Shown: piece after piece, positions 2,607-63,573 of the stretch
Layout: each line of letters starts with the position of its first letter
Position numbering within the stretch: the stretch's first letter is position 1
Source of the DNA: Robertkochia marina
GTDB lineage: Bacteria > Bacteroidota > Bacteroidia > Flavobacteriales > Flavobacteriaceae
Assembly: GCF_004799345.1 (NCBI RefSeq)
Contig: NZ_SSMC01000002.1
Location: 310,001-374,000 of the forward strand
Reading direction: 5' to 3'
DNA: 64,000 nucleotides
Program-made: the position numbers and the translations under genes
Notes under the pieces: generated by a model
What the model saw: the letters and a program-made list of their open reading frames with translations, nothing else
The model's database searches: none
What the model was told of the DNA's origin: nothing

Positions 2607-3775
2607 AAGGAAACGTCCATACAGCAGAGGAGGTGATGGATGTTCTGAGATCAGAATCAGAAGCCATATACGATACCCTGGAAACTCTGGTGTATATGGA
2701 ATCTCCTTCAAGTAACCGGGACGCCTTGCGCGGTATTATCAATTACCTGGACAAGACTCTTAAGAAAATGGGGTATTATACGTTTAATTACCCGGGAAAG
2801 AATACCGGCGGATTGTTATATGCCCGGCCCAAAAATAGAGAGAAGCAACAGCCCATTCAATTGATGATCGGACATTGTGATACCGTGTGGAAGAAGAATA
2901 CCCTCAGGTCAATGCCGTATAGGGAAGGGGAGAAAAAAATTTCCGGACCGGGAGCTTATGATATGAAAGCAGGAATAACCCAGATCATATACACGCTTAA
3001 AACCCTGCAGTACCTCGGGCATACCCCGGAGGTTTTGCCTGTGGTGCTTATCAATACCGATGAAGAGATAGGGAGTGTTGAATCAAAAAGGATCATCAGA
3101 CGTCTGGCAAGAATTGCTGAAAGGGCTTTTGTCATGGAGCCTCCTTTGGGCTTGGAAGGAAAATTAAAAACAGAAAGAAAAGGAGTAGGCCGATTTACCC
3201 TGACCGTTAAGGGAAGGGCAGCCCATGCAGGATTGGATCCTGAAAAAGGGATCAATGCCATTGTAGAGCTTTCTCACCAGATACAAAAACTCTATGCCAT
3301 GAATGATCCTGAGAGAGGACTAACGGTCAATGTAGGGATGATCAGTGGAGGGGTTTCTCCTAATGTGGTGGCTCCTGAAAGTAGTGCGGTAATCGATGTC
3401 AGGGTGAATAATAAGGAGGATGGTAAATGGATTACCCGTAAGATCATGAACCTCAAGCCCGACCTTCCGGATTGTGAACTTGAAATTACCGGGGGTATTG
3501 GAAGAGCTCCAATGGAATCGAATTCGCGTAATCGCGCCTTATGGGAAATGGCGCAGCAAAAGGGAGCCCAACTGGGGCTTTCCCTGGAAAGCGGAAAGGC
3601 CGGAGGAGGATCTGATGGTAATATAACCAGTGAGTTTACGGCCACCCTTGACGGATTGGGAACTCCCGGAGATGGTGCCCATGCCGATCATGAATATATT
3701 CTGAAGGAATCCCTTATTGAAAGAACAGCTTTGTTGACCCTTTTGGTCATGGAACCCTCTGTTAAAATGAATTGA
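2603..3775 (+). CDS. M20-family metallopeptidase (glutamate carboxypeptidase-like)
   Basis: A 390-residue M20 peptidase. The metal site is visible: MIGHCDTVW (His91, catalytic Asp93), GPGAYDMKAG (bridging Asp), NTDEEIGS (catalytic Glu and metal Glu near 154-155), FVMEPP and a C-terminal GAHADHEYI histidine near 363. The dimerisation domain has AHAGLDPEKG. The pattern is closest to the CPG2/glutamate carboxypeptidase branch, which removes C-terminal Glu from peptides or folates. There is no signal peptide, so it is cytoplasmic. It is coupled by overlap to the flavin reductase upstream and DUF1611 downstream; a role in recovering amino acids from peptides, perhaps with D-glutamate, is an inference from that neighbour. 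Confidence 0.88.
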   Translation: MKGNVHTAEEVMDVLRSESEAIYDTLETLVYMESPSSNRDALRGIINYLDKTLKKMGYYTFNYPGKNTGGLLYARPKNREKQQPIQLMIGHCDTVWKKNTLRSMPYREGEKKISGPGAYDMKAGITQIIYTLKTLQYLGHTPEVLPVVLINTDEEIGSVESKRIIRRLARIAERAFVMEPPLGLEGKLKTERKGVGRFTLTVKGRAAHAGLDPEKGINAIVELSHQIQKLYAMNDPERGLTVNVGMISGGVSPNVVAPESSAVIDVRVNNKEDGKWITRKIMNLKPDLPDCELEITGGIGRAPMESNSRNRALWEMAQQKGAQLGLSLESGKAGGGSDGNITSEFTATLDGLGTPGDGAHADHEYILKESLIERTALLTLLVMEPSVKMN

Positions 3776-4797
3776 TGAGACCAAGCAGCTACATCTTCAC
3801 AACCCTGACCAGGATCTCAGATCTTGAAGCCCACCCTTTTGAGGTGAAAAAGCTTCATAAAGATCGTTGGGCCTCCGGAGATTATGTGGTTTCCCGAATT
3901 ACGGGAATAGGCAGTTCTACCTCAAAACTGGAACTTCCCAACGGTCGTATGCGCGGGGTAATAGGTGGAGAACTCGTGGTTGGCGCATTAGGGGTTCGGC
4001 ATGCTACCCTCGAGGCTACAGGTACCTGGAAAGAGGTGCAGGAAGACGGTGAGATGCATATGCTTTCCGGGGGTGGACTCATGGGAAAGCTGACCTCCAA
4101 GTCAATGTTTATTCCTGAAATGATTCCGATCAGATATGAGGGACACGTTATGCGGGGTAATGAGAAATGTACCATGGGGCAATTCGTGACCCCTTGTAAG
4201 GAAAGAGATTATATGATTCCAACGGTATTATTTATAGGAACCTCCATGAGTGCAGGAAAGACCACCTCGGCCCGGATTGTCACCTCCCTGCTTACAAGGG
4301 CAGGCTATAAGGTGTTGGGGGCTAAGATCACCGGAACCGGACGCTTTCGGGATATCCTCGCTGTGAAAGATGTAGGAGCGGTGGAGGTCTATGATTTTGT
4401 AGATGCAGGGCTGCCTACCACGGTATGTGATCCGGAATTATACCGGGAAAAGCTAAAACATATGCTGAGCTGTATGGCTGCTTCCAGGGCCGATGTGGCC
4501 GTGGTAGAGATCGGGGCATCGCCCCTGGAGCCCTATAACGGAGATCTGGCTTATGAAGGTATCAAAGAACAGGTAAAGTGCTGTATTCTCAGTGCCTCCG
4601 ATCCTTATGCGGTCTACGGGCTTATGGCCGCCTTTGAGGTAAAGCCCGACCTGGTAACCGGCATATCTGCAAATACCCTGGGCGGACAAGAGATGGTGGA
4701 AACCTTGTGTGGGGTGCCGGCCATGAATTTATTGGAGCAAAGTTCCATACCCCGTTTAAAAAGCCTGTTGCGACAGAAGCTGGGGGTGAAGGTGTAG
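3775..4797 (+). CDS. DUF1611 family P-loop protein (DgcN-like)
   Basis: A 340-residue DUF1611 protein: an N-terminal Rossmann-like half, then a P-loop half with Walker A IGTSMSAGKTT around residues 154-163. Known relatives include DgcN, an N-acetyltransferase acting on D-glutamate, usually paired with the racemase DgcA; no racemase is visible here. The frame could open at a TTG at 3772, but the ATG at 3775 overlapping the peptidase stop (TGATG) is the better start. It is third in an operon with a flavin reductase and an M20 peptidase, a grouping compatible with metabolism of N-acyl or peptide-bound glutamate. Activity is inferred only from the family. Confidence 0.82.
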   Translation: MRPSSYIFTTLTRISDLEAHPFEVKKLHKDRWASGDYVVSRITGIGSSTSKLELPNGRMRGVIGGELVVGALGVRHATLEATGTWKEVQEDGEMHMLSGGGLMGKLTSKSMFIPEMIPIRYEGHVMRGNEKCTMGQFVTPCKERDYMIPTVLFIGTSMSAGKTTSARIVTSLLTRAGYKVLGAKITGTGRFRDILAVKDVGAVEVYDFVDAGLPTTVCDPELYREKLKHMLSCMAASRADVAVVEIGASPLEPYNGDLAYEGIKEQVKCCILSASDPYAVYGLMAAFEVKPDLVTGISANTLGGQEMVETLCGVPAMNLLEQSSIPRLKSLLRQKLGVKV

Positions 4798-4803
4798 AGG
4801 GGA

Positions 4804-4895
4804 GTAGTCCCGCTGGAGCGGGATTAATTCCCAATGCTTGTTGTGATTCACGGGAAAGGCTCTCACAACAAGTTGGTCATTAAAGAGTAGAGAGT
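4804..4895 (+). repeat. Structured 3'-UTR repeat, family B, copy 1
   Basis: The element begins 7 bases after the DUF1611 stop, in the same orientation. It contains a hairpin TCCCGCTggAGCGGGA, a link ATTAATTCCCAAT, a second hairpin with arms TTGTTGTGA and TCACAACAA, and the tail GTTGGTCATTAAAGAGT. A second copy lies at 13389-13480 in reverse orientation, just after metY. The stems are kept although the bases differ (TTTTGTGA/TCACAAAA in the other copy), which indicates selection on RNA or cruciform structure. Confidence 0.7.
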
Positions 4896-4945
4896 AAGAA
4901 AGAAACAAAATACTATAAAATAAAAACCAATTAAAAACTACAATT

Positions 4946-5107
4946 ATGAATTCTAAAACATCAGAAAACAAACGACACCTTTTAACAGGGTTTGTAATGA
5001 TCTCCTTAGGGTTGATCATAGCAGGAGTATTACAGGATCAGTATGCCACCGTAGGTATTCTTTTAATGGCTTTGGGCGGATTATTTATGATCCCAAAGAT
5101 GCATTAA
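4946..5107 (+). CDS. Small two-helix membrane protein
   Basis: A 53-residue open frame starting ATG AAT TCT. It has a short basic N-terminus (NKRH), a first hydrophobic segment (about residues 13-29, TGFVMISLGLIIAGV) and a second (36-50, VGILLMALGGLFMIP). It is a paralogue of the 60-residue protein 64 bases downstream: both share the pattern G-[FI]-V-x-I-S-L-G-[LV]-I and [ML]-A-x-G-G-L-x-[MF]-I. The shared pattern makes a real gene likely despite the size. Function unknown; probably an inner-membrane protein. Confidence 0.6.
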   Translation: MNSKTSENKRHLLTGFVMISLGLIIAGVLQDQYATVGILLMALGGLFMIPKMH

Positions 5108-5171
5108 TGAAAGTATTCTAAAGCGTAGCATTTCAGTTTATGTCTTTTAAAATCGTTATAAAATTAACAAG

Positions 5172-5354
5172 ATGAATCCACCGGAGGAACAATATCGCAG
5201 GTATGTATTTTTTGGCATCGTCCTAATTTCTCTGGGCGTCATATTCAATACAACTTTAGATAACCTCTCCGGTTCGCTGGGTACGGTTCTCATTGCCTTT
5301 GGTGGACTCCTCTTTATTGTAGGCATGAAGAAGAAAAGAGACGCTTCGAAGTGA
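5172..5354 (+). CDS. Small two-helix membrane protein, paralogue of the preceding gene
   Basis: A 60-residue protein with two hydrophobic segments (about residues 11-26 and 36-51) and a basic tail ending KKKRDASK. The motif GIVLISLGVIF matches GFVMISLGLII of the 53-residue protein immediately upstream, and VLIAFGGLLFI matches LLMALGGLFMI, so the two arose by tandem duplication. Positive charges at both ends suggest both termini are cytoplasmic. No known domain is recognised. Confidence 0.65.
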   Translation: MNPPEEQYRRYVFFGIVLISLGVIFNTTLDNLSGSLGTVLIAFGGLLFIVGMKKKRDASK

Positions 5355-5391
5355 GGTTCATTTGAGGCGTAAATAAGAGAGAATGTCGCCA

Positions 5392-5915
5392 ATGAACACA
5401 ATTATCTTAACACATTTTATTTTTCAAAGTTTTTGGAGAAGGAGTGTACTCTTTTTCCTGTTGGGATTGTTGTTTCCTTTCTTTTGGGTATAGGCCCAGG
5501 AGTTCACTTATAATGGTCAAGATTTTATCAGGGTATATGATCTTAACGGACAAAAGATCGGAAAGGGTAAATTGGTAAAAGGCAACTCTTCAACGCTTGA
5601 ATTATACCATGAAAAGCGGTCGGTTTTGATCCCGCTGAAAAAAAAGGAAAGGTCAAAACCAAACACTCCGCATGGCATAACACTCTTGTAGGAATGGGGG
5701 GCGGAGCTGTGGTTGCCGGCACCCTGATGGCCGTTGATGATGATGTGGATTTTTGGGGAGGCTGCGGGCAGGCATTTGTCGCCGGGGCTATTGTGGGTAG
5801 CGTCGCAGGAGGTATTTTGGGTGCCATCACGGCAATTTTTAAGAACCCAAAGGTTTATCACAACCAAGGTGATCCGGAAAAGTTCAGGGAGTTTCTCACC
5901 ATCATGAATCAATAG
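5392..5915 (+). pseudogene. Decayed gene for a secreted glycine-zipper protein
   Basis: An ATG at 5392 opens a signal peptide-like stretch (SVLFFLLGLLFPFFWV), but a TAG at 5491-5493 interrupts it exactly before AQEFTYNGQDF, where signal cleavage would be expected. Reading continues in frame through VYDLNGQKIGKGKL to about 5640, after which the homologous-looking continuation (EKKGKVKTKHSAWHNTLVG) is in another frame. The end of the gene, to the TAG at 5913-5915, has a Gly-rich helix pair (GMGGGAVVAGTL and FVAGAIVGSVAGGILGAI) like glycine-zipper membrane proteins. One nonsense and one frameshift change are needed; sequencing error at the poly-A near 5638 could explain only the second. Confidence 0.6.
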
Positions 5916-6011
5916 TATTTGAAAATTCTGAGCATAAAGAGAATGGTTAGCTGAGTACCGGCATATCCCTAATGCCAATATCTTATATTTGCAGACAGGA
6001 AATAAACGGGT

Positions 6012-7097
6012 ATGGATCTTCAGGACACTAAAAATTCACTTCACGCAGATATCGTAATTATAGGTGCCGGACTCACCGGGTTAACCCTGAATTATCTCCT
6101 GAGATCAGAAGGATTGAAGGTCGTGGTTGTAGAAGCCCGTGATCGGGTAGGAGGGCGTATTCATACACTTCATAAAAAAGGGGAGCCTACGGTGGAAATG
6201 GGGGCTACCTGGTTTGGCTCCAAACACATTCACCTGGTATCCCTATTGAAGGAACTGGGACTTGGATGGTTTCCACAAAGACTGGGTAAAACCGCTATTT
6301 ATGAGTATATGTCAACCAGTCCGCCCCAATTAGTAACCTTGCCCGATAACGACGAACCCAGCTTCAGGATCAAAGGAGGTACTTCTGAACTAATCAAAGC
6401 ACTGAACACCTGCCTTTCAAGTGACCAACTACTTCTGAGTACCAGGGTAACCGCAATTAATGATAATGGGGATCACCTCGTTGTTCAAACCGATTCAGGT
6501 ACCATCAAGGCTGTCAGGGTAGTATCAACCCTACCGCCAAATCTTTTCCAAAGCAAGATCGCTACTTCTCCCGGACTCCCTGAAAGGTTGCTTGAACTCA
6601 TGCAGCAAACCCACACGTGGATGGGCGAGTCGATCAAATTCGCCCTCACCTTTAAAGAACCTTTTTGGAGAAATGCAGGCACCAGTGGTACGGTATTCAG
6701 CAATACCGGTCCGGTTACAGAAATGTACGATCACGCCGATTTTAATGATGAGTATTTTGCGCTGAAAGGATTTCTTAATGGAGCCTATCATTCGGTAAAT
6801 AAAGAAGAACGATTGAAGATCATACTCGGGCAATTAGAGAAATACTATGGAGCAAGAGTAAGGGAGTATATAAATTTTCATGAAGTGGTTTGGGCACATG
6901 AACCCTTTACCTATGCCCCTTATGAAGGTCATATTTTTCCGCATCAGCATAACGGTCATGAACAATTCAGGCAGCCGTTCATGGAGGGCAGGTTATATCT
7001 GGCAGGTTCAGAAACGGCCCCTGACTTCCCCGGGTATATGGATGGGGCGGTAGCAAGTGCGCAATTCGTAGCAAGACAACTTAGAAAAGAGCTGTGA
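6012..7097 (+). CDS. FAD-dependent amine oxidase (monoamine oxidase-like)
   Basis: A 361-residue flavoprotein of the amine oxidase family. The dinucleotide-binding motif IVIIGAGLTGLTLNYLL and the GG motif EARDRVGGRIHT lie within the first 55 residues; the C-terminus has the second FAD contact, LYLAGSETAPDFPGYMDGAV, typical of monoamine oxidases. At 361 residues it is shorter than the usual 430-500, with a compact substrate domain. No signal peptide. Such enzymes oxidise primary or secondary amines to imines with release of hydrogen peroxide; the substrate cannot be read from the sequence. It appears monocistronic. Confidence 0.85.
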   Translation: MDLQDTKNSLHADIVIIGAGLTGLTLNYLLRSEGLKVVVVEARDRVGGRIHTLHKKGEPTVEMGATWFGSKHIHLVSLLKELGLGWFPQRLGKTAIYEYMSTSPPQLVTLPDNDEPSFRIKGGTSELIKALNTCLSSDQLLLSTRVTAINDNGDHLVVQTDSGTIKAVRVVSTLPPNLFQSKIATSPGLPERLLELMQQTHTWMGESIKFALTFKEPFWRNAGTSGTVFSNTGPVTEMYDHADFNDEYFALKGFLNGAYHSVNKEERLKIILGQLEKYYGARVREYINFHEVVWAHEPFTYAPYEGHIFPHQHNGHEQFRQPFMEGRLYLAGSETAPDFPGYMDGAVASAQFVARQLRKEL

Positions 7098-7289
7098 TAA
7101 TGAAAAATGATTCCCCGGTGTATTGAAATTCAAGCTATTTGTTTTAATTTCACATGACTAGTTATAAGAGGTTCAGGCACTTATCATTGGTGTATTAATT
7201 GTTATTGCTTTTTTCTGAGCCTTGTTAATATCCCTGGAACCACTCCAGCCGCTATTTAATGAAACCGTTGTATAACCAAGTTTCATGGA

Positions 7290-9578
7290 ATGAGCCGTAA
7301 TCGAAAAACCATCCGTATTGTTGTGATCACCCTTCTCGGGGTGTTGCTGCTTGTTCTGATGCTATTGCCATTACTGATAAAAAATTATATCATAAAAAAC
7401 AGTGAGGAGCTTATTGGCAGGCAGGTATATATGGAGAAGCTTCGTATAAATTACTTCACCAGCACGCTAAGCATTTATGATTTTATCATGTATGAAGCAG
7501 ACGGGGAAGAAACCTTTTTCACCTTTGATACCCTGATCGTGAATGCCGAACCTTATAAATACATAAGTAAAACCATCTCAATTGATCAATTCTATTTGGA
7601 AGGCCTGAATCTGAACCTGAAAAAACGTAATTCGGCCTATAACTTTGATGATCTTGTAAAGTACCATACTGCTACGGATACAACAGGTTCAGATTCCGGA
7701 GAAGGAGATGAAGAGGAAGTGTTTAAATACCAATTATCTGAGCTGGAATTAAAAGACGCCTCGGTGAAATTTGAAGATGGAGATGTTAATGAAACAACTT
7801 CCATGGAAGACCTGGGTTTTTATGTGCCCTATATAGAGTGGAACCAGGAAGACGATAGTGAGGCTGATATCGAACTGAAATTCTCAGAAGGCGGTACGTT
7901 ACGCTCCTCTTTTGCATACCATCCACAAACCGGCGATTTTGAAGGAGGCGTTGAACTCGAAGGCTTACAACTGCAACCCTTTTATAAATACGCTGCAGAA
8001 TATGCCAATATTAAAGATCTTAAGGGGGTGGTCAATACGACTATTAATCTTACAGGAAATGATAAAAGCCCGGAAAGATCATTGATCTCGGGAAATATCG
8101 AGGTGAATGACTTTATCATGACCGATGAGGAAAATGAAAAGTTTTTCGGCAGTGAAAAGGTGACCTGTTTGCTGGAGGAGATCAATTATCACGAGCAGGC
8201 CTTTATCCTTTCTGAGCTCCGTATAGAAGAGCCCTATATAAAGTTCCAGTTGGATTCGGCCTCCAATAATCTGTTCCGTATTTTTAATATTACCCCTGAA
8301 ACAGCTGAATCTTCTGCAGATGCTGTTGATACTGCAGAAAGCGGAAAAAAGGAAAGCTCCGCTGAGGTTGCAGATGCTGCCTCCGCTGATTCCTTATCCG
8401 GAAAGAGCACAGATGCGATCTACTACGCCCTCAAAAAGGTAAAAGTAGATAAGGGGGTACTGGATTATACAGATAATCTTACCGGGCAGCCTTTCGAATA
8501 CCACCTTAGTGAGATCATGATAGATACCGACAGCATATACAGTGATAGTGATTGGATAGATATCTTATCTGAAATGCTGTTAAATGAAAGAGGCACCCTG
8601 AAGTCTAAACTCGGGTTTAACCCGCAAAACCCCATGGACCTCGATATAGATATAGCCATCAAAGATTTTGTTTTGGCCGATCTTAATATTTATTCAACGC
8701 ACTACACAGGTCACTCTATCCTCAATGGTGATATGTTCTATTTTACCAATTCAAAAATTGAAAAGGGACAGATCACCAGTGAAAACAACCTCCTGATCAA
8801 GGATGTTTCTGTGGAAAATTTGAAAGGCGGACTATGGTCTTTACCCCTAAAGCTTGCCGTGTTCCTACTGAAGGATAAAAACGGAGACATTGAACTGGAT
8901 GTGCCCGTGAGAGGTGATCTCAATAACCCGGAGGTGGATGTTTGGAAGCTGATTGGTACGACCCTTAAAAAAAAGATCTTTAATGTGACCGATAACCCGG
9001 CCAGAAGCCTTGCTAAACTGGTTGATGCCGAACCCGAAGACCTCGAGGCTTTGGTTCTCAACTACCCGGACACGGCGTTAACAGATGAACATAAAAGGCA
9101 ATTAGACCTTATTCTTGAGCTTGAAAAAAAGAAAGAAGGATTGAGCATCGTCCTGAATTATGTATTCGATGAAGATCTGATGCGGGATTCTCTTTTCTAC
9201 AACACAGATTCTACATCAATAGGAGGAGTCATAGGGGACACATCGACTGTTGCAGCTACTCAAGCGGAGTTGAATGTAAACAAACCGGATTCTGAATCCT
9301 TGCAAATGGGAGCAATGGTGAATGAGTATTCCGATTATCAGAATTTAGATACCCTGCTCCTGGACTATGGCAATAAACTAAAAACAAAAATAGAAGGCTA
9401 CCTGACAGAAAAAGAGGCTTCCACCAACATGACCATAGAAATAGCTGAACTCAGTGATCCTGCCAATGTAGGTACTACTCCTCAGTTTAAAGTGAAGTAT
9501 GATGTAGGTGAATCTAAAGAAGAGGAACCTGCAAAACAGACCGCCAGGAACAATGAGGATAGTTCGGAGGAACAGTAG
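7290..9578 (+). CDS. AsmA-like / DUF748 envelope protein
   Basis: A 762-residue protein with one N-terminal membrane anchor (about residues 8-30, IRIVVITLLGVLLLVLMLLPLL) followed by a long periplasmic region of repeated beta-rich segments (for example LIVNAEPYKYISKTISIDQFYLEGLNL). DUF748/AsmA-type proteins are thought to bridge inner and outer membrane and act in lipid transport or outer-membrane homeostasis. Residues about 345-375 are an Ala/Ser/Asp-rich low-complexity linker. The C-terminal part (LAKLVDAEPEDLEALVL..) resembles the end domain of DUF748 proteins, and the tail is acidic. Single gene, no clear operon. Confidence 0.75.
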   Translation: MSRNRKTIRIVVITLLGVLLLVLMLLPLLIKNYIIKNSEELIGRQVYMEKLRINYFTSTLSIYDFIMYEADGEETFFTFDTLIVNAEPYKYISKTISIDQFYLEGLNLNLKKRNSAYNFDDLVKYHTATDTTGSDSGEGDEEEVFKYQLSELELKDASVKFEDGDVNETTSMEDLGFYVPYIEWNQEDDSEADIELKFSEGGTLRSSFAYHPQTGDFEGGVELEGLQLQPFYKYAAEYANIKDLKGVVNTTINLTGNDKSPERSLISGNIEVNDFIMTDEENEKFFGSEKVTCLLEEINYHEQAFILSELRIEEPYIKFQLDSASNNLFRIFNITPETAESSADAVDTAESGKKESSAEVADAASADSLSGKSTDAIYYALKKVKVDKGVLDYTDNLTGQPFEYHLSEIMIDTDSIYSDSDWIDILSEMLLNERGTLKSKLGFNPQNPMDLDIDIAIKDFVLADLNIYSTHYTGHSILNGDMFYFTNSKIEKGQITSENNLLIKDVSVENLKGGLWSLPLKLAVFLLKDKNGDIELDVPVRGDLNNPEVDVWKLIGTTLKKKIFNVTDNPARSLAKLVDAEPEDLEALVLNYPDTALTDEHKRQLDLILELEKKKEGLSIVLNYVFDEDLMRDSLFYNTDSTSIGGVIGDTSTVAATQAELNVNKPDSESLQMGAMVNEYSDYQNLDTLLLDYGNKLKTKIEGYLTEKEASTNMTIEIAELSDPANVGTTPQFKVKYDVGESKEEEPAKQTARNNEDSSEEQ

Positions 9579-9687
9579 TCAAACCTGGTGGCTACCCTGA
9601 ATCGAACCACCATACCTTCATGAAGGCATATAATGAAACTATATCCCCATTATTTAAACGAAGTTTCCAGGCGAATGAATCCGGTTA

Positions 9688-10275
9688 TTAAAGCTTTGCA
9701 ACCTTCCACTTACCTGATTCGTCCTTAAAGGCTACCAACCCGGACGACACTATTTTTGAGACCATCTCAGGCTGTTTGTACTTCTTAGCATCGAGCAGCA
9801 CCCCCTTATGAGCGGTGAGGTATTTTAGTTCGTCTCCCTGGGTGTTGATAAGAACCTCATCAAAATTCCTGTCAATGATCTCCTTGTTCAGGTATTGGTT
9901 AGTACCTCTTACCTGTTCTTCCATTTTGAGTACAATGGCATACCCATCCTTAAAAGCAGTTGCATTCAGGTATATGGGTTCGATCACGATTTCACCACTG
10001 GTATCTATATACCCGTAATAAGGAATACCTTCTTTGGTCTGTTGGATAAGGCATCGGCCTTCTTTGAATTCAGGAGCTTTTTCTCCGGTTACCAGATCGT
10101 CACGATAATCAATAACCAGGGCGCCCTCCTGATCGATAAATGCCCACTTTCCGTCTTTTTCAACAGAAATAAGGCCGTCTGAAAGTTCTCCCACGGCAGC
10201 AAGTCCGCTATGCTCCTGTGCTGAAAGTATGAGCGTAAAAACTCCCGAAAGAAGAAATAATAAGAGCTTTTTCAT
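9688..10275 (-). CDS. Secreted WG-repeat protein
   Basis: A 195-residue protein with a Sec signal peptide (MKKLLLFLLSGVFTLILSAQ, cleavage after SAQ). The mature part has WG repeats: LISVEKDGKWAFIDQEGALVI, YYGYIDTSGEIVIEPIY and a final FKDESGKWKVAKL. WG repeats form beta-propeller-like or solenoid structures in surface proteins of Bacteroidota; no enzymatic function is known. It is convergent with the AsmA-like gene. The 109-base gap between them carries a GGTGG/CCACC hairpin and a CCTTCATGAAGG palindrome that could limit read-through. Confidence 0.75.
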   Translation of the reverse strand: MKKLLLFLLSGVFTLILSAQEHSGLAAVGELSDGLISVEKDGKWAFIDQEGALVIDYRDDLVTGEKAPEFKEGRCLIQQTKEGIPYYGYIDTSGEIVIEPIYLNATAFKDGYAIVLKMEEQVRGTNQYLNKEIIDRNFDEVLINTQGDELKYLTAHKGVLLDAKKYKQPEMVSKIVSSGLVAFKDESGKWKVAKL

Positions 10276-10516
10276 TTTAATACGTTTTACGGTTCAGATT
10301 AAATGTAGCAGACTTGGTGGTAAAATTAAATGACGCACATCATCTTTGTTATTTATCTATAATTTAAGCAATTAAAACCTCGCGCTTCCTGCGAATCAGG
10401 GTGGGTAGATATCCATGAACCCTCCAAAGATTTGACCTCCCAGATTTCCTTAAATGTTAATATTTTATTAATTTTATAGGACAACCATAACACCCCGGGT
10501 GTTTAAAACCAATAAG

Positions 10517-11014
10517 ATGTTACTAAGAATAGTGATGGCCTGCTTTGTCAGCCTTTCTATCCTTGCTTGTGGGAACAGCGGAGAGGATGCCATCAAAACC
10601 ACCGGAGAAGCTGAAATAACAGAAGATTTTATTGCTATGGAGCGTACAGAAGTGAAAGCTGTTTTTGACGAGACCTTCTGTAAAATGGAGAATAAAACAT
10701 CTTTAAAACTGAATATTTGCCGCTCGTATAAAAAGCAGCTCAAGTCATCAGGAAAATGCCGGGATCATTCTGTAGGTAAAAAAAGAATTCAGGATCCTGA
10801 GATCTCTGCAGATAATCTTGTGAACATTGACTACAGCCCGGACGACCTAAGGATCGATATTTTTGATGACCTGGCTGTGGTAAAATATGTAGCCGTGCTG
10901 CATGCTGAACTCAATAACCAAACCGGACAACTAAGCAGTGCCGGTACCATGGAATTCGTCAAGGAAGACGGTCAATGGAAAATGGTTCATGAGCATCTAT
11001 TGGCAAAGAAGTGA
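10517..11014 (+). CDS. Lipoprotein with NTF2/SnoaL-like features
   Basis: The frame opens with GTG at 10499, but the ATG at 10517 gives a proper lipoprotein signal (MLLRIVMACFVSLSILACGN, lipobox Cys about residue 18). The mature protein of about 145 residues ends in a segment typical of NTF2/SnoaL-like folds (IDIFDDLAVVKYVAVLHAEL, then GTMEFVKEDGQWKMVHEHL). It is probably lipid-anchored in the periplasm or outer membrane; no catalytic residues can be named. The stop codon lies inside the first unit of a heptamer repeat array (11011-11066), so the array directly abuts the gene end. Confidence 0.65.
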   Translation: MLLRIVMACFVSLSILACGNSGEDAIKTTGEAEITEDFIAMERTEVKAVFDETFCKMENKTSLKLNICRSYKKQLKSSGKCRDHSVGKKRIQDPEISADNLVNIDYSPDDLRIDIFDDLAVVKYVAVLHAELNNQTGQLSSAGTMEFVKEDGQWKMVHEHLLAKK

Positions 11015-11066
11015 CAGGTAACAGGTGACAGGTAACAAGTTACAAGTGACAGGTGACAAGTTATAT
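11011..11066 (+). repeat. Heptamer tandem array, consensus GTRACAR
   Basis: Eight consecutive 7-base units: GTGACAG, GTAACAG, GTGACAG, GTAACAA, GTTACAA, GTGACAG, GTGACAA, GTTATAT. The first overlaps the stop codon of the upstream lipoprotein gene. The same words in reverse orientation recur at 54606-54650 and 56319-56341. Confidence 0.75.
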
Positions 11067-11143
11067 AGGGAGGAGCCCTGATTACCTCCTCGAATTAATA
11101 AAAGGTTTGTGAGCCCGGAATGAAATCTCCATTACCTAACTTT

Positions 11144-11227
11144 CTACCATCTACCATCTACCATCTACCATCTACCATCTACCATCTACCATCTACCATC
11201 TACCATCTACCATCTACCATCTACCAT
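11144..11227 (+). repeat. Heptamer tandem array, 12 perfect CTACCAT units
   Basis: Twelve exact, uninterrupted copies of CTACCAT occupy 84 bases, followed by degenerate ATTCATC words. Because 7 is coprime with 3, all three frames stay open, so the apparent reading frame of LPSTIYH repeats across it is an artefact. Perfect identity of all units suggests recent expansion by slippage and probable length variation between strains. Confidence 0.9.
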
Positions 11228-11242
11228 TCATCATTCATCATC

Positions 11243-11320
11243 CATTGCATACACCGCAGCCTTGGCGAAGGTGTATTATTCACCATTCATTGCATACACC
11301 GTAGCCTTGGCGAAGGTGTA
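11243..11320 (+). repeat. Two direct 33-bp repeats in a gene-free stretch
   Basis: A 33-base word starting CATTGCATACACCG and ending GGCGAAGGTGTA occurs at 11243-11275 and again at 11288-11320, with one mismatch (C/T). Each copy has TACACC and GGTGTA at its ends, giving a weak dyad. No gene is visible between 11067 and 11419; the stretch is made of this repeat, the neighbouring heptamers and a few unassigned bases. Confidence 0.7.
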
Positions 11321-11419
11321 CCATCCATCACGCCTTCGTCGTTATGAATTCCTGCAGCCTGTTCTGTTTCCCTGCGGTCGCATTCCAGACGCAGTCATTC
11401 ATAATTCATCATTTCCGAC

Positions 11420-12754
11420 TTACGACTCCCTAACAATCGCCTCCATTTTTTTAATACAGGTATCCACCTCTTCTTCGGTATTAATCACGCAAGGGGTGAG
11501 TCGGGCGTAAGACACCCGATAAGGAGAGGCACTGGCAATGATTCCATGTTGATGAAATTTCTTTACCAAAGTAACGGCATCCATGCCCTCGATCTGCATA
11601 CAATTGATTCCTGCAGAAAGTTCAGGGTTCATAGGGGTAAGTATATCAACCCCCTTGATGGCTTCTAACCCTTCTTTTAGTTGGGTGTTCAGTGCCGTTG
11701 TGCGTTGGTGTACCTTGTCTCTTCCCATTTCCATTTGAAAATCGAAGGCGGCATTCAAGGCCCAACGATGGTCAAAGGCATGAAAGCCTCCGGGGGTGAT
11801 CACTTCGTTAAAGGTAGGTTTAGCAGAGCTTTCAAACCCTAACCAGGTTTCGTAAGCGTATTGTGAAAAAGGAGGGATGGTAGGTCGCACAAAATCCCAG
11901 GCAGAACGTCTTGCATACAGAATACCGGTACCTCGTGGCCCGAAGATCCACTTATGGGTGCCGGCAGAAAAGAAGTCACAGCCCATGGCACTGATGTCTT
12001 CATCCTGGTTTCCAAAGCCGTGTACCCCGTCTACCGCAAAATAGATACGGTTACTTTCGTCTCTTGATCTGTTTGCTTCTTCGATAACATCGGCAATGGC
12101 ACGAATGGGGAGCTTCACCCCGGTACAACTATGTACCCAGGTTACCATGACCACACGAGTTTTATCAGTGATAGCCCTGGCAATATTTTCAGTGACCTCT
12201 GCAACCGTAACGGTCCTTGGATCCTGGTATTCGTCGATCTTTCTGTAACTCGCTCCGCTCTTCTCGCAGGCAAACTCTATAGACTTGTCGGTTACATAAT
12301 GATCATGGGTGGTTTGTATGATCTCATCTCCCGGTTTTAATTTCATGCCGTTAAACAGGAGGGAGGTGCCCATGGTGGTGCTGTCGGTGAGCGCGATCTC
12401 TTCCGGATCAACATTCATATATGCACCTGCAGCCTTGGTGACCACCTTCTCGGCCGTCATAAAATGTTCTTCCCAATAAGTGGCGGGGTTTGCGTTATAA
12501 GCCTTGCGATGTTTCTCAATAGCTTCAGCTACCGGGGCGGGGTGGGAGGCCAGCAGCATCTGGGCCATTTGAATATGTTCATGGTCAAGCATGAATTGAG
12601 ATCGCACCCATTGCCATGAATTATTATGAATACCTCCTTCAACAGAGGGTATTTTATGTTGATTCTCAGTTTTAAAAGCATGGAGTGTGGAGGGAAACAT
12701 GGAGGCCATTCCGAGGGTGAGTCCGGAGGCACCGATAAACTTACGTCTGTCCAT
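11420..12754 (-). CDS. PLP-dependent aminotransferase class V-fold protein with Tat signal
   Basis: A 444-residue fold-type I PLP enzyme of the aminotransferase class V group (isopenicillin N epimerase / cysteine desulfurase-like). The PLP lysine is in FFSAGTHKWIFGPRGTG; upstream are LTDSTTMGTS (phosphate-binding region), VMVTWVHSCTGVKLPI and FAVDGVHGFGN (the Asp that contacts the pyridine nitrogen). The N-terminus MDRRKFIGASGLTLGMAS is a twin-arginine-type signal, so the folded cofactor-loaded enzyme is probably exported. The substrate is not predictable. It appears monocistronic; its 3' end lies beside the heptamer-rich region. Confidence 0.85.
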   Translation of the reverse strand: MDRRKFIGASGLTLGMASMFPSTLHAFKTENQHKIPSVEGGIHNNSWQWVRSQFMLDHEHIQMAQMLLASHPAPVAEAIEKHRKAYNANPATYWEEHFMTAEKVVTKAAGAYMNVDPEEIALTDSTTMGTSLLFNGMKLKPGDEIIQTTHDHYVTDKSIEFACEKSGASYRKIDEYQDPRTVTVAEVTENIARAITDKTRVVMVTWVHSCTGVKLPIRAIADVIEEANRSRDESNRIYFAVDGVHGFGNQDEDISAMGCDFFSAGTHKWIFGPRGTGILYARRSAWDFVRPTIPPFSQYAYETWLGFESSAKPTFNEVITPGGFHAFDHRWALNAAFDFQMEMGRDKVHQRTTALNTQLKEGLEAIKGVDILTPMNPELSAGINCMQIEGMDAVTLVKKFHQHGIIASASPYRVSYARLTPCVINTEEEVDTCIKKMEAIVRES

Positions 12755-13006
12755 TGTGAATATGGTTTGGTGGTTACCTCCTCAAGGTAGTTCAAAAAAA
12801 TGATTCAATCTGCGGTTAAGTAGCTGAAAAACAGTATTTAAAGTTTGATTTTGAGCCATGACACACTCAATCTAAAGAGACGAACACCTATTTTTTATAG
12901 GATATAATCTATGAAAATCCGATGAAATGCACATATGAAAGATAAAATACTGAAAATCAACAATTTATTGCTGTTTTTATACAAGATGTGAGGTATTCTT
13001 CGGGCG

Positions 13007-13228
13007 TATATTTGCATCGTTGAAATTTTGAAAGGCAGTTGATCGGGAAGGCTAAAACGCTTCTCGCATTTTGAATCCCGCATCACTCTAAAATATCACT
13101 TATCCTACTTGAGACCGGTAGGAGGTTCCTGCCCCCTTTGGAACCTACTCAACGTCTCTAATTAAAGTTGACAATCAGTTTTTTTAAGTTATGTGTTTTA
13201 GGCCACCCTGAGGGGTGGCTTTTTTTTG
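13007..13228 (+). ncRNA. Candidate stand-alone structured RNA with own promoter and terminator
   Basis: A perfect Bacteroidota -7 box (TATATTTG, 13007-13014) is followed by about 190 bases with no credible open frame and then an intrinsic terminator (13202-13228). Within it, around 13109-13156, GAGAC...GTCTC encloses an internal loop and a 7-bp inner stem AGGTTCC/GGAACCT with a C-rich loop. No plus-strand gene follows, so this is not an obvious leader. Size and layout fit a small RNA such as a 6S-type or other housekeeping RNA, but I cannot match it to a known family; no good -33 TTG box is seen. Confidence 0.45.
13202..13228 (+). terminator. Intrinsic terminator of the candidate RNA
   Basis: GCCACCCTGAGGGGTGGC forms a 7-8 bp GC-rich stem followed by eight T on the plus strand. 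There is no T-run on the other side, so it acts on plus-strand transcripts. Confidence 0.8.
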
Positions 13229-13280
13229 TTGGCGGGCGAAGAAGCGAAGAAGTAAAGAAGCGAAGAAGGAATGAGGAGTT

Positions 13281-13333
13281 AAAAATGTACAGTGGACATT
13301 TTTAGCGAATGGGCCAGGTGGCGCGGTGGCAGG
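13281..13333 (+). repeat. Structured dispersed repeat, family A, copy 1
   Basis: A two-hairpin element: AAAATGT...ACATTTTT, then TAGCGAATGGGCCA...TGGCAGG. Three further copies lie at 54488, 56202 and 56405, all on the plus strand. The first stem here is AATGT/ACATT, where the others have AAGGTC/GACCTT, so paired bases changed together. Confidence 0.65.
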
Positions 13334-13388
13334 CAAAGGAGTGGAGAACCCGGTTAAACTGCAGATTGCAAACTGAAAAATTCAACCG

Positions 13389-13480
13389 ACTCCCCACTCT
13401 TTAATGACCAACGTTTTGTGAGAATCCAATGGGTGAATCACAAAAAGTATTGGGAATTAATCCCGCTTTAGCGGGACGAC
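13389..13480 (-). repeat. Structured 3'-UTR repeat, family B, copy 2
   Basis: Read on the minus strand, this starts 31 bases after the metY stop and carries the same order of parts as the copy at 4804: TCCCGCTaaAGCGGGA hairpin, ATTAATTCCCAAT, a TTTTGTGA...TCACAAAA hairpin and GTTGGTCATTAAAGAGT. Both copies lie directly downstream of, and colinear with, a gene. A short degenerate octamer stretch (13484-13526) sits between it and the end of metY. Confidence 0.7.
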
Positions 13481-13511: not shown

Positions 13512-14828
13512 CTATTTACCCGTCTGGCTCCCAACCACAACAGACCTCTTCTTTGAGATCAGATCGAATACCTGTTTCAGGTCGGCTTTCAGATCTTCAA
13601 TGTCCTCGAGTCCAACCGATAGTCGTATCAGATCTTTGGTGACTCCTGTCAATACCTGGTCTTCATCGTTCAATTGTTGGTGGGTGGTACTGGCGGGATG
13701 TATGATCAGCGATTTCGTATCTCCTATATTGGCGAGCAGGGAGAACACTTGTGTTTTATCGGCTATGATCTTTGCGGCCTCATACCCGCCTTTTACTCCA
13801 AAGGTAACGATCCCGCTTTGTCCTTCGGGTAAATAACGCTTTGCAAGGTCGTAAAATGGGCTATGCTCCAGTCCGGGGTAGTTAACCCAGCTAACCTCCG
13901 GTTGTTGTTGCAACCATTTGGCCAATTCTAAAGCATTTTGGCTGTGTTTCTTGATCCGTAGCTCCAGGGTTTCCAGTCCCTGGATGATCTGAAAAGCGTT
14001 AAACGGACTTAAGGCGCTTCCGTAATCGCGTAAGCCTTCAATACGCACCTTTGCTATAAAGGCGGCTTCCCTCAGGGCTTCGCTGTACACCAGGCCGTGA
14101 TACCCGGGCGAGGGCTCCGTAAATTCAGGGAATTTCCCGTTAGTCCAGTCAAAGGTACCGGCGTCAATAATAACGCCTCCGAGGGCAGTTCCGTTTCCGT
14201 TAATGTATTTGGTCAGGGAGTGGATCACCAGGTTAGCCCCGTGTTCAATAGGATTTAAAAGGTAGGGGGTGGCCACTGTATTATCTACAATAAGGGGTAC
14301 CCGGTTACTTTTCGCCTGCCTGGAAATAGCTTCAATATCCAGAACATCCAACTTTGGGTTACCCAGAGATTCAATAAAAAATGCCCTGGTATTTTCCTGT
14401 GTGGCTTTATCAAAGTTTTCCGGATCTGAGGGATCAACAAAGGTGGTGGTGATACCATGTCGGGGCAGGGTTACACTCAGTAAATTAAACGTACCTCCAT
14501 AGAGGCTGCTGGAAGCCACGATATGATCGCCTGCCTTAAGCAAGGTGAGCAGGGTAGTGGTAATGGCTGCGGTTCCTGAGGAAGTGACCACGGCCGCAAT
14601 ACCATTTTCAAGGGCAGCCAGTCGCTGCTCAAGGATGTCGTTGGTGGGGTTGTTGATACGGGTGTAAATGTTTCCCGTTTCAGCCAGTGAAAAAAGGTTG
14701 GCCGCATGATCAGAATCCTTAAAAACATAGGCGGTTGACTGATAAATAGGAACCGCGCGGGTTCCTCCGTTTGCGGTTACATCGTGTCCGGCATGCAACG
14801 CTTTGGTTGCGAATTTTTGTGTACTCAT
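13512..14828 (-). CDS. metY: O-acetylhomoserine sulfhydrylase
   Basis: A 438-residue Cys/Met-metabolism PLP enzyme of the O-acetylhomoserine (thiol)-lyase type, which makes homocysteine from O-acetylhomoserine and sulfide in the cytoplasm. Recognisable parts are the N-terminal FATKALHAGHDVTANGGTRA, PIYQSTAYVF, YTRINNPTND, TSSGTAAITT and the PLP lysine in IHSLTKYINGNGTALGG. The length is typical of MetY (about 430) and longer than MetB/MetC (about 380), which favours this assignment. A SAM-I riboswitch lies 122 bases upstream on the same strand, so expression should fall when S-adenosylmethionine is plentiful. No second methionine gene follows; the final codons run into a degenerate octamer array. 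Confidence 0.9.
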   Translation of the reverse strand: MSTQKFATKALHAGHDVTANGGTRAVPIYQSTAYVFKDSDHAANLFSLAETGNIYTRINNPTNDILEQRLAALENGIAAVVTSSGTAAITTTLLTLLKAGDHIVASSSLYGGTFNLLSVTLPRHGITTTFVDPSDPENFDKATQENTRAFFIESLGNPKLDVLDIEAISRQAKSNRVPLIVDNTVATPYLLNPIEHGANLVIHSLTKYINGNGTALGGVIIDAGTFDWTNGKFPEFTEPSPGYHGLVYSEALREAAFIAKVRIEGLRDYGSALSPFNAFQIIQGLETLELRIKKHSQNALELAKWLQQQPEVSWVNYPGLEHSPFYDLAKRYLPEGQSGIVTFGVKGGYEAAKIIADKTQVFSLLANIGDTKSLIIHPASTTHQQLNDEDQVLTGVTKDLIRLSVGLEDIEDLKADLKQVFDLISKKRSVVVGSQTGK

Positions 14829-14950
14829 TTTTCTTTTTTTTTGAGTTCATAAATGATTTAAACCCAAAGTCAAATAAGCTTCGGCAGAAGCATACTTAAT
14901 AGAAAAATGTTATAAAGAAATACATAACAGCAGGGGCGCTGTTACGGTTG

Positions 14951-15059
14951 GTTATCTATCTGAGATGATCAATCACCTCATGTAGAATGTAGCACCTTCT
15001 TACAGGGTAAGGGTTGCTAAGGCTTCGCAGGGTCTATTCCCTCCACCTTTCTTGATAAC
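14951..15059 (-). promoter_or_regulatory. SAM-I (S-box) riboswitch
   Basis: Read on the minus strand, the element begins GTTATCAAGAAAGGTGGAGG and continues with the conserved P2/P3 features (GGGA..CCCTGCGAAGCC, then TTAGCAACCC) and the AAGGTGCTACA of P4/J4. The closing helix P1 is GTTATC with GATAAC at 14951-14956. This matches the S-box consensus (ATCAAGAGAGGTGGAGGGA...GCAACC...AAGGTGCTA). It lies in the leader of metY. An AATATTTG box near 15090 on the same strand is a plausible -7 element. Confidence 0.93.
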
Positions 15060-15173
15060 ATTTCAGTAAGTCTTTGAACTTTGTGAGCACAAATATTTTG
15101 AATTAAATATTTAATATCCAAGGATTTTTGCAAATAAATATATAATTCCTATCGGATTAGTAGAGTTTAATGG

Positions 15174-15310
15174 GTAACAGGTAGGCAGGTAAACAGGTAG
15201 ATAGGTAGATAGGTAAGTAGGTAGGCAGGTAACCATGCCTTCGGCTTGGCGGGCAGGTGACAGGTAGGCGGGTAGGCGGGTAGGCGGGTAGACAGGTAGA
15301 CAAGTAAGCA
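15174..15310 (+). repeat. Degenerate octamer tandem array, GTAGGCAG-like
   Basis: Units of eight bases (GTAGGCAG, GTAAACAG, GTAGATAG, GTAGATAG, GTAAGTAG, GTAGGCAG), an interruption near 15230-15250 containing GCCTTCGGCTTGGCGGG, then GTAGGCGG three times and GTAGACAG, GTAGACAA, GTAAGCAG. No gene is present between the metY riboswitch and 15786. The same octamer family appears in degenerate reverse form at 13484-13526. Confidence 0.75.
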
Positions 15311-15514
15311 GAAGGCCGAATGGTTATTAAACATTCAGTGAACCTTTAATAGTGAGGAGCCAGCTGACGAGAAGGTATATTTTTCAGTAAAGACAGATAG
15401 GGATTTCTTAAACTAGGTCAAAGGGAGATCCAGAGTAAAATTCAGGAGATCGCCACGGCCATTACATGGCCTACCACTGACGGATTTAAATTTGGTTGAA
15501 AAAAATATAAAATG

Positions 15515-54383: not shown

Positions 54384-54487
54384 GAGACAAAATTAAGAGA
54401 GGTAGAGCAAAGAAAACCGGTGGCTATCACTGCAGTTTATTTAGAAACTAAATTATTTCCCTCCTTTCTAAGGGGGCAGAGCGTTTA

Positions 54488-54540
54488 GAAAAGGTCCGGT
54501 GGACCTTTTTAGCGATAGAGCCAGCTGGAGCGATGGCAAG
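54488..54540 (+). repeat. Structured dispersed repeat, family A, copy 2
   Basis: AAAAGGTCCGGTGGACCTTTT hairpin is followed by TAGCGATAGAGCCA and TGGCAAG of the second hairpin. A CCCTCCTTTCTAAGGGGGC module precedes it (54464-54484), as in copy 3. This is in the 402-base gap before rhlE, which otherwise holds the heptamer array and GGCCGAAGGCC. Confidence 0.7.
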
Positions 54541-54605
54541 AAGGGTGGTGTGGTTCTCGGGTGGCCGAAGGCCGCCTTGCTCTACCGGAGGTTTTATGTA
54601 CTTTT

Positions 54606-56054: not shown

Positions 56055-56201
56055 ATAGGCTTTCTGGTGGGTTGTAGGCAAAGAAAACCGGAAGGCTGCT
56101 ACTACAGTTTATTACTTAACTAATTTATTCCTCTCCTTTTTAATCGGTTTACATTGAAATCGCAAATTACCCCCTCCTTTCTAAGGGGGCTGAGCGTAAA
56201 G

Positions 56202-56253
56202 AAAAGGTCCCGTGGACCTTTTTAGCGATAGAGCCAGCCGGCGCGCTGGCAAG
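56202..56253 (+). repeat. Structured dispersed repeat, family A, copy 3
   Basis: AAAAGGTCCCGTGGACCTTTT, then TAGCGATAGAGCCAGCCGGC and GCGCTGGCAAG. In this copy the second stem is GCCAGC/GCTGGC against GCCA/TGGC elsewhere, a compensated change. The CCCCCTCCTTTCTAAGGGGG module precedes it. Confidence 0.7.
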
Positions 56254-56404
56254 AAGTGCGGGGTGGTTCTGGGGTGTTTTTCACTGGACTTTAACGTCTT
56301 TCCATGATTCGATGTTACCCCTGTTACTTGTTACTTGTCACCTCCCGGGGATTACTCAAAATGCTCAGTATTTTCCGTGATCCCGGGAGGAGTACCAAGC
56401 GTTG

Positions 56405-56455
56405 AAAAAAGGTCTAGAAGACCTTTTTTGCGCAGGGGCCAGCTGGCGCGATGGC
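56405..56455 (+). repeat. Structured dispersed repeat, family A, copy 4
   Basis: AAAAAAGGTCT and AGACCTTTTTT form the first hairpin with only an AGA-type apex, then GCGCAGGGGCCAGCTGGCGC and GATGGC. It is followed at 56506-56547 by CCCCCTCCTTTGCAAGGAGG and a GGGCGGGGTGGTTGG segment. Confidence 0.65.
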
Positions 56456-56626
56456 GTAAAGAAAACCGGAGGCTGCGACCGTATTTTAATTTGGAAATGA
56501 ATTTACCCCCTCCTTTGCAAGGAGGGGTGCCCGTAGGGCGGGGTGGTTGGCTTAAAGCTGTAATACTTTCTGTTAATTTCGGGATTACTCGCCCTGCTTT
56601 GCAGGTCTCGTGATCCCGGAGGGGAG

Positions 56627-57322: not shown

Positions 57323-57337
57323 TGAACAATATTACTC

Positions 57338-57394
57338 TCGCGAAGCATGGACTGAAACTTTGACAGTCCTTAATGTTCAAGGTAAATTTATATT
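57338..57394 (+). repeat. Left copy of the 57/58-bp inverted repeat
   Basis: Begins TCGCGAAGCATGGACTGAAA and ends TTTATATT. It matches the minus strand of 63486-63543 with two substitutions and one single-base gap. Inside is a hairpin GGACTG..CAGTCC and the imperfect dyad CCTTAATGTTCAAGG. Here no precursor gene follows; the next gene is the TlpA-like one, 243 bases away. Confidence 0.88.
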
Positions 57395-57637
57395 TTATTA
57401 TTTGATTTTAGAACAAGTAAAATAAAATTGTATCAGTTGTAAATCTAGATTGCATTATCAAGAGCTTAAACGCAATATTGTTTGGGAGAAAGAAACCCCT
57501 TATAACCGAACAATTAAAGCTTATATATAAGTGACAGGTTGTCTAAACAATAGAAAGGTTAAATCAATTACGTATTTATTGGAGAACGTTGTGAGTTATA
57601 TTACTCTTATTCTAACGATCATAAAATTGAAGAATTC

Positions 57638-63288: not shown

Positions 63289-63468
63289 TTAATCACAGAA
63301 ATCGAAACACGCTTGAACGGAACTTGCGCATCCAATAACTTGGATTTGATCACTACCTGAACATGAACAAGGGATTCCACCACCTGGACATTGCCCATCT
63401 CCACCTAAAACAGTTTTCAATTGGTCTCTACTCAAAATTTCACTTGAGTTAAAATTTAAATTTCTCAT
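63289..63468 (-). CDS. Double-glycine leader precursor of a six-cysteine secreted peptide
   Basis: A 59-residue precursor. Residues 1-23 are a leader with the Bacteroidota natural-product pattern LSRDQLKTVLGG (Leu12, Leu17, Leu21, Gly22-Gly23). The 36-residue core (24-59) has six cysteines at 27, 34, 36, 47, 54 and 58 and two Gly-rich patches (DGQCPGGGIP and CSCSGSD). A C39 exporter, HlyD adaptor and two thiol oxidoreductase genes lie beside it. The core probably forms three disulfides; no radical-SAM, LanM or YcaO enzyme is seen, so cysteine bridging by oxidation is favoured over thioether formation. The right inverted repeat lies 17 bases upstream of the ATG. Whether it is an antibacterial peptide or signal is unknown. 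Confidence 0.85.
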   Translation of the reverse strand: MRNLNFNSSEILSRDQLKTVLGGDGQCPGGGIPCSCSGSDQIQVIGCASSVQACFDFCD

Positions 63469-63485
63469 AATAAAACAAAATATTT

Positions 63486-63543
63486 AATATAAATTTTGCC
63501 TTGAACATTAAGGACTGTCAAGGTTTCAGTCCATGCTTCGCGA
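63486..63543 (-). repeat. Right copy of the 57/58-bp inverted repeat (precursor leader region)
   Basis: Minus-strand reading starts TCGCGAAGCATGGACTGAAA and ends AAAATTTATATT, 17 bases before the precursor start. Hairpin GGACTG..CAGTCC and the dyad CCTTAATGTTCAAGG are conserved with the left copy. It lies between the stop of the thioredoxin-domain gene and the precursor. Confidence 0.88.
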
Positions 63544-63573
63544 AAGCAATTTCGTTAACCTAAAAAGGTGATT

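Follow-up and report, generated by a model that had tools for sequence, protein, structure and literature searches.

The closest described counterparts of the repeat family reported here are the repetitive extragenic palindromic (REP) sequences and REP doublets forming hairpins (REPINs), with their REP-associated tyrosine transposases (RAYTs). These are short, palindromic, non-coding, intergenic and multi-copy sequences that are patchily distributed and occur both singly and in clusters. Miniature inverted-repeat transposable elements (MITEs) are likewise non-coding and multi-copy, have discrete ends and are presumably moved in trans, and in elements of the IS200/IS605 type a guide sequence beside the end hairpin pairs with the cleavage site. 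In the GTAG and CGTC REP superfamilies, the tetranucleotide GTAG or CGTC stands unpaired at one hairpin foot, according to the passages of PMC3733652 that define them; the portion of PMC6006769 on RAYTs describes a REP guide sequence, as well as "atypical secondary structures" that flank the RAYT subclass 2.6 genes of Bacteroidetes. Here we analysed a family of short palindromic elements noticed in a 64,000-nucleotide stretch of Robertkochia marina DNA (GCF_004799345.1, contig NZ_SSMC01000002.1, positions 310,001 to 374,000 of the forward strand; hereafter the window). The original prediction had read two copies in this window as a conserved RNA element of 3′ untranslated regions. Our results indicate that the family probably consists of short non-coding mobile DNA palindromes, REP- or MITE-like, that are moved in trans by an enzyme encoded elsewhere.

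The elements share the REP and REPIN features listed above, but they are longer, have two or three hairpins with a TC/TC internal loop and conserved TTARTTC and TCAYTAA ends, and lack a GTAG or CGTC tag, the conserved ends of the aligned copies reading TCCCGC and TCAYTAA. Genes for Y1 transposases (RAYT or IS200/IS605-like) were not regularly flanked by copies, which accompanied one of 31 Y1 loci in one set and one of 30 in a second, the latter drawn from 51 Y1 matches. Like the element, the structures at RAYT subclass 2.6 genes are found in Bacteroidetes, are structured and have copies elsewhere in the genome; by their description in PMC6006769, the element differs in flanking Y1 genes at only 2 of 61 loci. 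From MITEs it differs in that we found no parent insertion sequence and no clear target duplication, and in carrying stems in its interior where MITEs have plain terminal inverted repeats. As in IS200/IS605, a short sequence at the hairpin foot pairs with the element end (TTA/TAA, TCA/TGA, TAA/TTA), but the pairing is plain Watson–Crick, units in Omnitrophota are two-sided and symmetric, and no transposase accompanies them. Flavo-1 RNA (RF01705) is also a structured element of Flavobacteria, although its model matched none of the copies searched and instead another place (L173, 9834–9975). We recognised no earlier description of the family in the PMC papers searched; one may exist in subscription papers or preprints.

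The two matching stretches in the window are real. Copy c1 (4808–4888, plus strand) starts 10 nt past the stop codon of an open reading frame (ORF) at 3772–4797 (+), and copy c2 (13396–13476, minus strand) starts 35 nt past the stop codon of an ORF at 13512–14828 (−). They matched at 82% of positions over 94 nt in a genome search (E = 1.7e-20), far above chance, and both folded better than shuffled sequences, with z-scores of −3.5 and −3.9. Based on the folds and pair counts, each copy contains a GC hairpin, H1 (TCCCGC-4-GCGGGA; 4808–4823 in c1 and, on the minus strand, 13461–13476 in c2), directly followed by a long stem, H2 (4824–4883 in c1; 13401–13460 in c2, from the fold). The base of H2 reads TTAAT-TC-CCAA ... 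TTGG-TC-ATTAA with a TC/TC internal loop, and an inner stem of about 10 pairs stands above it (CTTGTTGTGA/TCACAACAAG in c1). The segments ATTAATTCCCAAT and GTTGGTCATTAA, previously taken as unpaired, in fact pair with each other as this base (TTAAT with ATTAA, CCAA with TTGG). No T-run of an intrinsic terminator follows H1 or H2 of c1 or c2 on the gene strand, and Rfam searches of the window at the gathering score and of 15 loci at E ≤ 10 gave no match overlapping a copy.

We built one covariance model (R1) from five copies and a broader one (R2) from 48 copies, and counted matches at E ≤ 0.001. The scan proposed in the original prediction recovered further copies, with stems kept paired, in the host genome and in other Flavobacteriaceae. 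The host genome (3.58 Mb, G000) contains nine copies, which fall into subfamilies A (five copies) and B (four copies); H1 of the latter reads ATCACGCC..GTGAT. Four of the five subfamily A copies start 10–48 nt past the stop codon of a colinear gene, and the fifth is 328 nt away. One subfamily B copy lies in the window at 11328–11406 (+; R2 model, E = 2.5e-6, and fold). Its H2 base reads TGAAT/ATTCA; two of the other three B copies have TTAAT/ATTAA and the fourth (L042) has TTAAT/ATTGA.

Covariation of the stem, which had been claimed from c1 and c2, is not carried by these two copies, where one pair is compensated (G–C to T–A) and one is broken, but it is clear at the family level. Among the five host-genome copies, six pairs changed on both sides, a value reached in 1 of 500 shuffles. 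In the alignment of 48 copies (47 distinct), 94.1% of cells pair, compared with 73.5% in shuffles, and the 47 distinct rows contain 16 pairs with 214 cells changed on both sides against a shuffle mean of 60.6; alignments fitted to a model lean towards structure, and slid controls reached at most 55 such cells. H1 and the element ends are conserved, whereas the inner stem is free in sequence with its pairing kept.

The copies occur dispersed in many marine bacteria and mostly lie beside gene ends. Of 299 Flavobacteriaceae genomes, 21 contained the pattern GCGGGATTARTTC..TCAYTAA and none contained its reversed control; the 278 absences rest on this pattern search, which misses divergent forms. 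Copy numbers were 36 in G063, 27 in G274, 26 in G204, 12 in G017 and 7 in G184, and reached 75 in Arenibacter sp. ARW7G5Y1. When the same pattern was run against named genomes, at least 115 stretches matched, of which 80 were listed, and hosts among the matches listed included Gelidibacter, Arenibacter, Dokdonia, Polaribacter, Aquimarina, Salegentibacter and Hyunsoonleella. Tandem arrays contained four copies at 110-nt spacing (L036), six at 91-nt spacing (L153) and five at 120-nt spacing (L272). The recognised unit consists of H1, TTA(A/G)T-TC, an inner stem free to vary and TC-A(C/T)TAA, and ranges from a half unit of 76–81 nt to a full unit of about 130–240 bp with two or three hairpins. 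Complete units in G274 measure about 199 bp and have a left part (AGTAAATGATCCTCGG..) preceding H1, and both ends (query positions 22–25 at the start and 221–228 at the end) are common to the query and 10 further units. These are thus discrete repeated units with fixed ends, as in MITEs, and no gene was seen within the ~199 bp. Patchy high copy number, discrete ends and tandem arrays are typical of mobile DNA. The G274 unit had no match in plasmids. Three pattern matches in viruses were read as chance, judging by their sequence and the missing full stem, and a stricter pattern gave none; L262, L266 (a tRNA-like stretch), L293 and L305 matched the pattern but not the model and were likewise set aside as chance. 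As a separate observation, the H1 loop of L155–L164 and of other G274 copies contains GATACTGAAACAAGTTCAGCA, a distinct repeat that also stands beside a Y1 gene at G274:C1:544251.

We then examined placement in 77 copies, with tandem ones joined, against random placement in the intergenic DNA of the same loci; genes were called as the longest non-overlapping ORFs by script rather than by a gene finder. A stop codon was the nearest boundary within 60 nt for 36 of the 77 copies (17.5 expected), in agreement with the nearness to stop codons first noted for c1 and c2, while a gene start was the nearest boundary for 8 (21.8 expected). Colinearity with the preceding gene is not a family rule, however, with the same strand found in only 38 of the 86 copies that had both neighbours. 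Right ends adjoined a terminator-like hairpin and T-run read towards the element in 9 of the 77 copies (1.35 expected), and left ends in none. At the DUF4293 and dnaJ sites, for example, the gene strand reads hairpin-TTTTTTTAGTGAAAC. Since such a T-run reads towards the element, the neighbouring transcript should end before it. Several opposite-strand genes stop on the TAG within the element's TTAGTGA, giving nine-base overlaps.

A transcript under selection for its fold is expected to tolerate G.U and to purge A.C on its own strand. In 85 unique copies out of 87 aligned (2024 cells), we counted 1831 Watson–Crick, 44 G.U and 57 A.C cells, and in 31 Omnitrophota copies 222, 9 and 10, respectively (634, 20 and 26 in a symmetric alignment of the arms). 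Neither strand looks RNA-selected, because G.U is not above A.C, and any alignment bias would favour RNA, because the aligning model scores G.U above A.C. As a control, 33 tRNAs from the same loci gave 674 Watson–Crick and 49 G.U cells, a one-sided comparison in that the program never brackets A.C.

Turnover of the stems was followed at shared sites. Past dnaJ in three Arenibacter species, the 106 letters preceding the element are 98–100% identical and the element ends 100%, whereas the inner part is 62–78% identical. Because inner-stem change so far outruns that of the flank, point-by-point compensation would be too slow, and replacement or re-copying of the palindrome fits better. The flank itself (L304, L298, L261) is a non-coding stretch of about 106 nt that ends in a terminator and is 98–100% identical next to a dnaJ 3′ part of 84–92%; it is possibly an RNA gene, and had no Rfam match in L304 or L298. 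At the DUF4293 site, the element stands 51–53 nt past the stop codon in four genera with different yet paired stems, for which independent settling at a preferred spot, in-place replacement and retained function are all possible.

Within the genus, none of the four other genomes had an element match. Past the c1 gene, the element is absent from G001, G003 and G004, with simple-repeat arrays in the first two and other sequence in the third. At the c1 site, a simple GAGT-type repeat past the stop codon forms the left flank of the element (4798–4807, +, by comparison with G001), and G001 has a longer array of this type instead of the element. Past the c2 gene, G001 and G004 are without the element. 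The host genome's own copies are also embedded in simple repeats. Together with the discrete ends and the patchy distribution, the absence at these sites supports units of mobile or recently mobile DNA that keep folded arms.

The matches listed also included roughly a dozen Omnitrophota records of the same layout, in some of which two or three copies stood within 8 kb, and five Omnitrophota genomes, reached through the scan loci and neighbouring ones, held 2–32 copies each at the same cut-off. Complete units are two-sided there, with an inverted stem, H1 and a second stem. These copies probably share an origin with the flavobacterial family; the shared ends are partly a product of the search, because the scan pattern itself contained them. 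For copies found with a strict pattern, the next gene was colinear in 20 of 21, and its start codon was 0–24 nt away in the 17 cases read. Pfam searches of nine such genes gave RNA polymerase Rpb1 domains, ribosomal proteins of the S7, S10 and L15 types, an ABC transporter and SecG, together with a class-V aminotransferase, D-3-phosphoglycerate dehydrogenase and AICARFT/IMPCHase. In G327 the rpoB–rpoC junction holds a unit of ~150 bp that contributes the in-frame TAA ending rpoB, whereas in the relatives G325, G337 and G333, which lack the unit, the end of rpoB stands almost directly at the rpoC start. The element also carries paired T-N-A triplets. In 41 copies, namely those rows that passed an inner-stem filter, with one or two apparent chance matches among them, the middle letters of the inner and outer triplets were T.A in 17, A.T in 11, C.G in 10 and others in 3. 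Thus 38 of 41 are Watson–Crick at this letter; for the subset with T or C inside and A or G outside, Fisher p = 8e-7.

How the elements move, and whether they move at all, was weighed against four other explanations. The conserved RNA element of mRNA 3′ ends that was originally proposed, acting as a stabiliser, terminator or regulatory target, draws on the stop-codon bias, the strong covariation, the colinear position of four of the five close host-genome copies and retention past DUF4293 in four genera. A structured family with covarying stems near stop codons therefore stands, but its reading as a 3′ untranslated RNA now appears quite unlikely: orientation is mixed, G.U shows no excess over A.C, several copies lie behind a terminator, inner stems differ by 22–38% where flanks differ by 0–2%, and no Rfam family matches. 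For the two window genes in particular, the element is probably not an RNA signal. The recurrence of one site in four genera and the placement behind terminators could also be called upon for resident DNA elements with a chromosomal role, such as protein or gyrase binding or a barrier to replication or transcription, kept at gene ends. This is unlikely in view of the absence from the 278 genomes of the pattern search and from all four same-genus genomes, and of copy numbers that range from none to 75.

Among routes of mobilisation, a Y1 transposase has in its favour that Y1_Tnp genes occur in all 20 element-bearing genomes tested (the host's own, seven of seven and twelve of twelve) and that a hairpin with a base-pairing triplet near the end resembles the guide and cleavage-site pairing of IS200/IS605. 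We nevertheless regard this route as doubtful, since an element within ±1.5 kb of 2 of 61 Y1 loci was judged close to chance, the Y1 genes inspected by eye carry other repeats, and neither tag was seen. Of the two nearby copies, one stands beside a Y1–HemF fusion gene and one at a gene that we read as pyrR-like from its sequence; RAYT mobilisation through flanking copies was rejected. The fusion is an observation in its own right: in G063, G274, G184 and G159, an IS200-like Y1_Tnp is joined to coproporphyrinogen III oxidase (HemF) in one frame of ~500 aa (L101 1474–2973, L094 1477–2961, also L102 and L090; Pfam run on two). In the host genome, the Y1 gene at G000:C3:127861 (L008, around 900–2200) stands between different, longer repeats that contain GACGTC hairpins. 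A MITE belonging to a DDE transposase, its short inverted ends accompanied by duplication of a 3-bp TNA target, would account for full Omnitrophota units that have inverted ends (TAAGTGA.. / ..TCATTAA) and outer T-N-A triplets on both sides, the same triplet being a direct repeat in three of the four that the pattern retrieved (TAA/TAA twice, TTA/TTA once). It is quite improbable, given that the fourth unit has different triplets (TAA/TGA), that the outer triplet is complementary to the inner one and so behaves as part of the element, and that flavobacterial units show no clear duplication. The R-box consensus of integron attC sites (RYYYAAC/GTTRRRY) was absent from what we saw, as was any cassette array, with no dedicated search made.

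Several points weigh against mobile palindromes moved in trans. No transposase was found, clustering of 971 neighbour ORFs gave no shared neighbour gene as a candidate enzyme, and no target duplication is visible at the G274 units. The stability of H2 and the position at gene ends are likewise compatible with a DNA or RNA element that has a function, the same place past DUF4293 in four genera could mean retained function, and the colinear placement near start codons in Omnitrophota looks almost regulatory. If the elements are mobile DNA, as we favour, a folded single strand, which would be the intermediate, would be recognised at its conserved ends by an enzyme encoded elsewhere, and copies would be inserted next to the ends of genes, in many cases past a terminator T-run. 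Such insertions would be tolerated thanks to the stop codons that the element brings (TTAGTGA in the inward direction). Inner stems would stay perfectly paired through copies being replaced or re-copied with complementary arms, rather than through a need of the mRNA. We favour, as a putative mechanism, a folded strand recognised by its ends, the inner triplet pairing with the outer as in IS200/IS605 guides. That a single-strand mobile palindrome with this pairing between a hairpin-foot inner triplet and an outer T-N-A triplet extends across both Flavobacteriaceae and Omnitrophota is a speculative proposal.

Other features of the window were noted alongside the copies. The gene preceding c1 (3772–4797, +) gave a weak DUF1611 match under the cut-off, and arrays related to the window's tandem repeats stand after the DUF1611-like gene in relatives. 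These simple repeats lie between genes at 11129–11261, 15165–15319 and 11006–11061 (TCTACCA, GGTA-type and GTGACAG-type). The gene preceding c2 (13512–14828, −) encodes a pyridoxal phosphate (PLP) enzyme of Cys/Met metabolism by Pfam, with an S-adenosylmethionine (SAM) riboswitch upstream (14949–15061, −; 68.9 bits). Another dispersed family with palindromic parts (AAAAGGTCC..GGACCTTTTTAGCG) occurs at 13282–13331, 54409–54563, 56081–56276 and 56407–56525, and a 105-nt inverted repeat, 78% complementary, has its arms 6 kb apart (57325–57429 and 63452–63556).

Strong covariation between paired stems usually counts as proof that an RNA is conserved, and here it accompanies patchy, strand-indifferent and probably mobile DNA. 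The family is therefore a clear test case for distinguishing palindromic DNA from RNA motifs, through counts of A.C against G.U and through turnover of the stem compared with its flank. Should the inner triplet act as a guide, the copies would offer data from nature on insertion directed by a guide beyond IS200/IS605, with natural covariation from guide to site (TTA/TAA, TCA/TGA, TAA/TTA). Units of this kind would settle at stop codons, bring their own stops into the host gene and have their inner stems renewed arm from arm. By supplying its own stops, such a repeat can settle even between tightly packed essential genes such as rpoB–rpoC and rpsL–rpsG.

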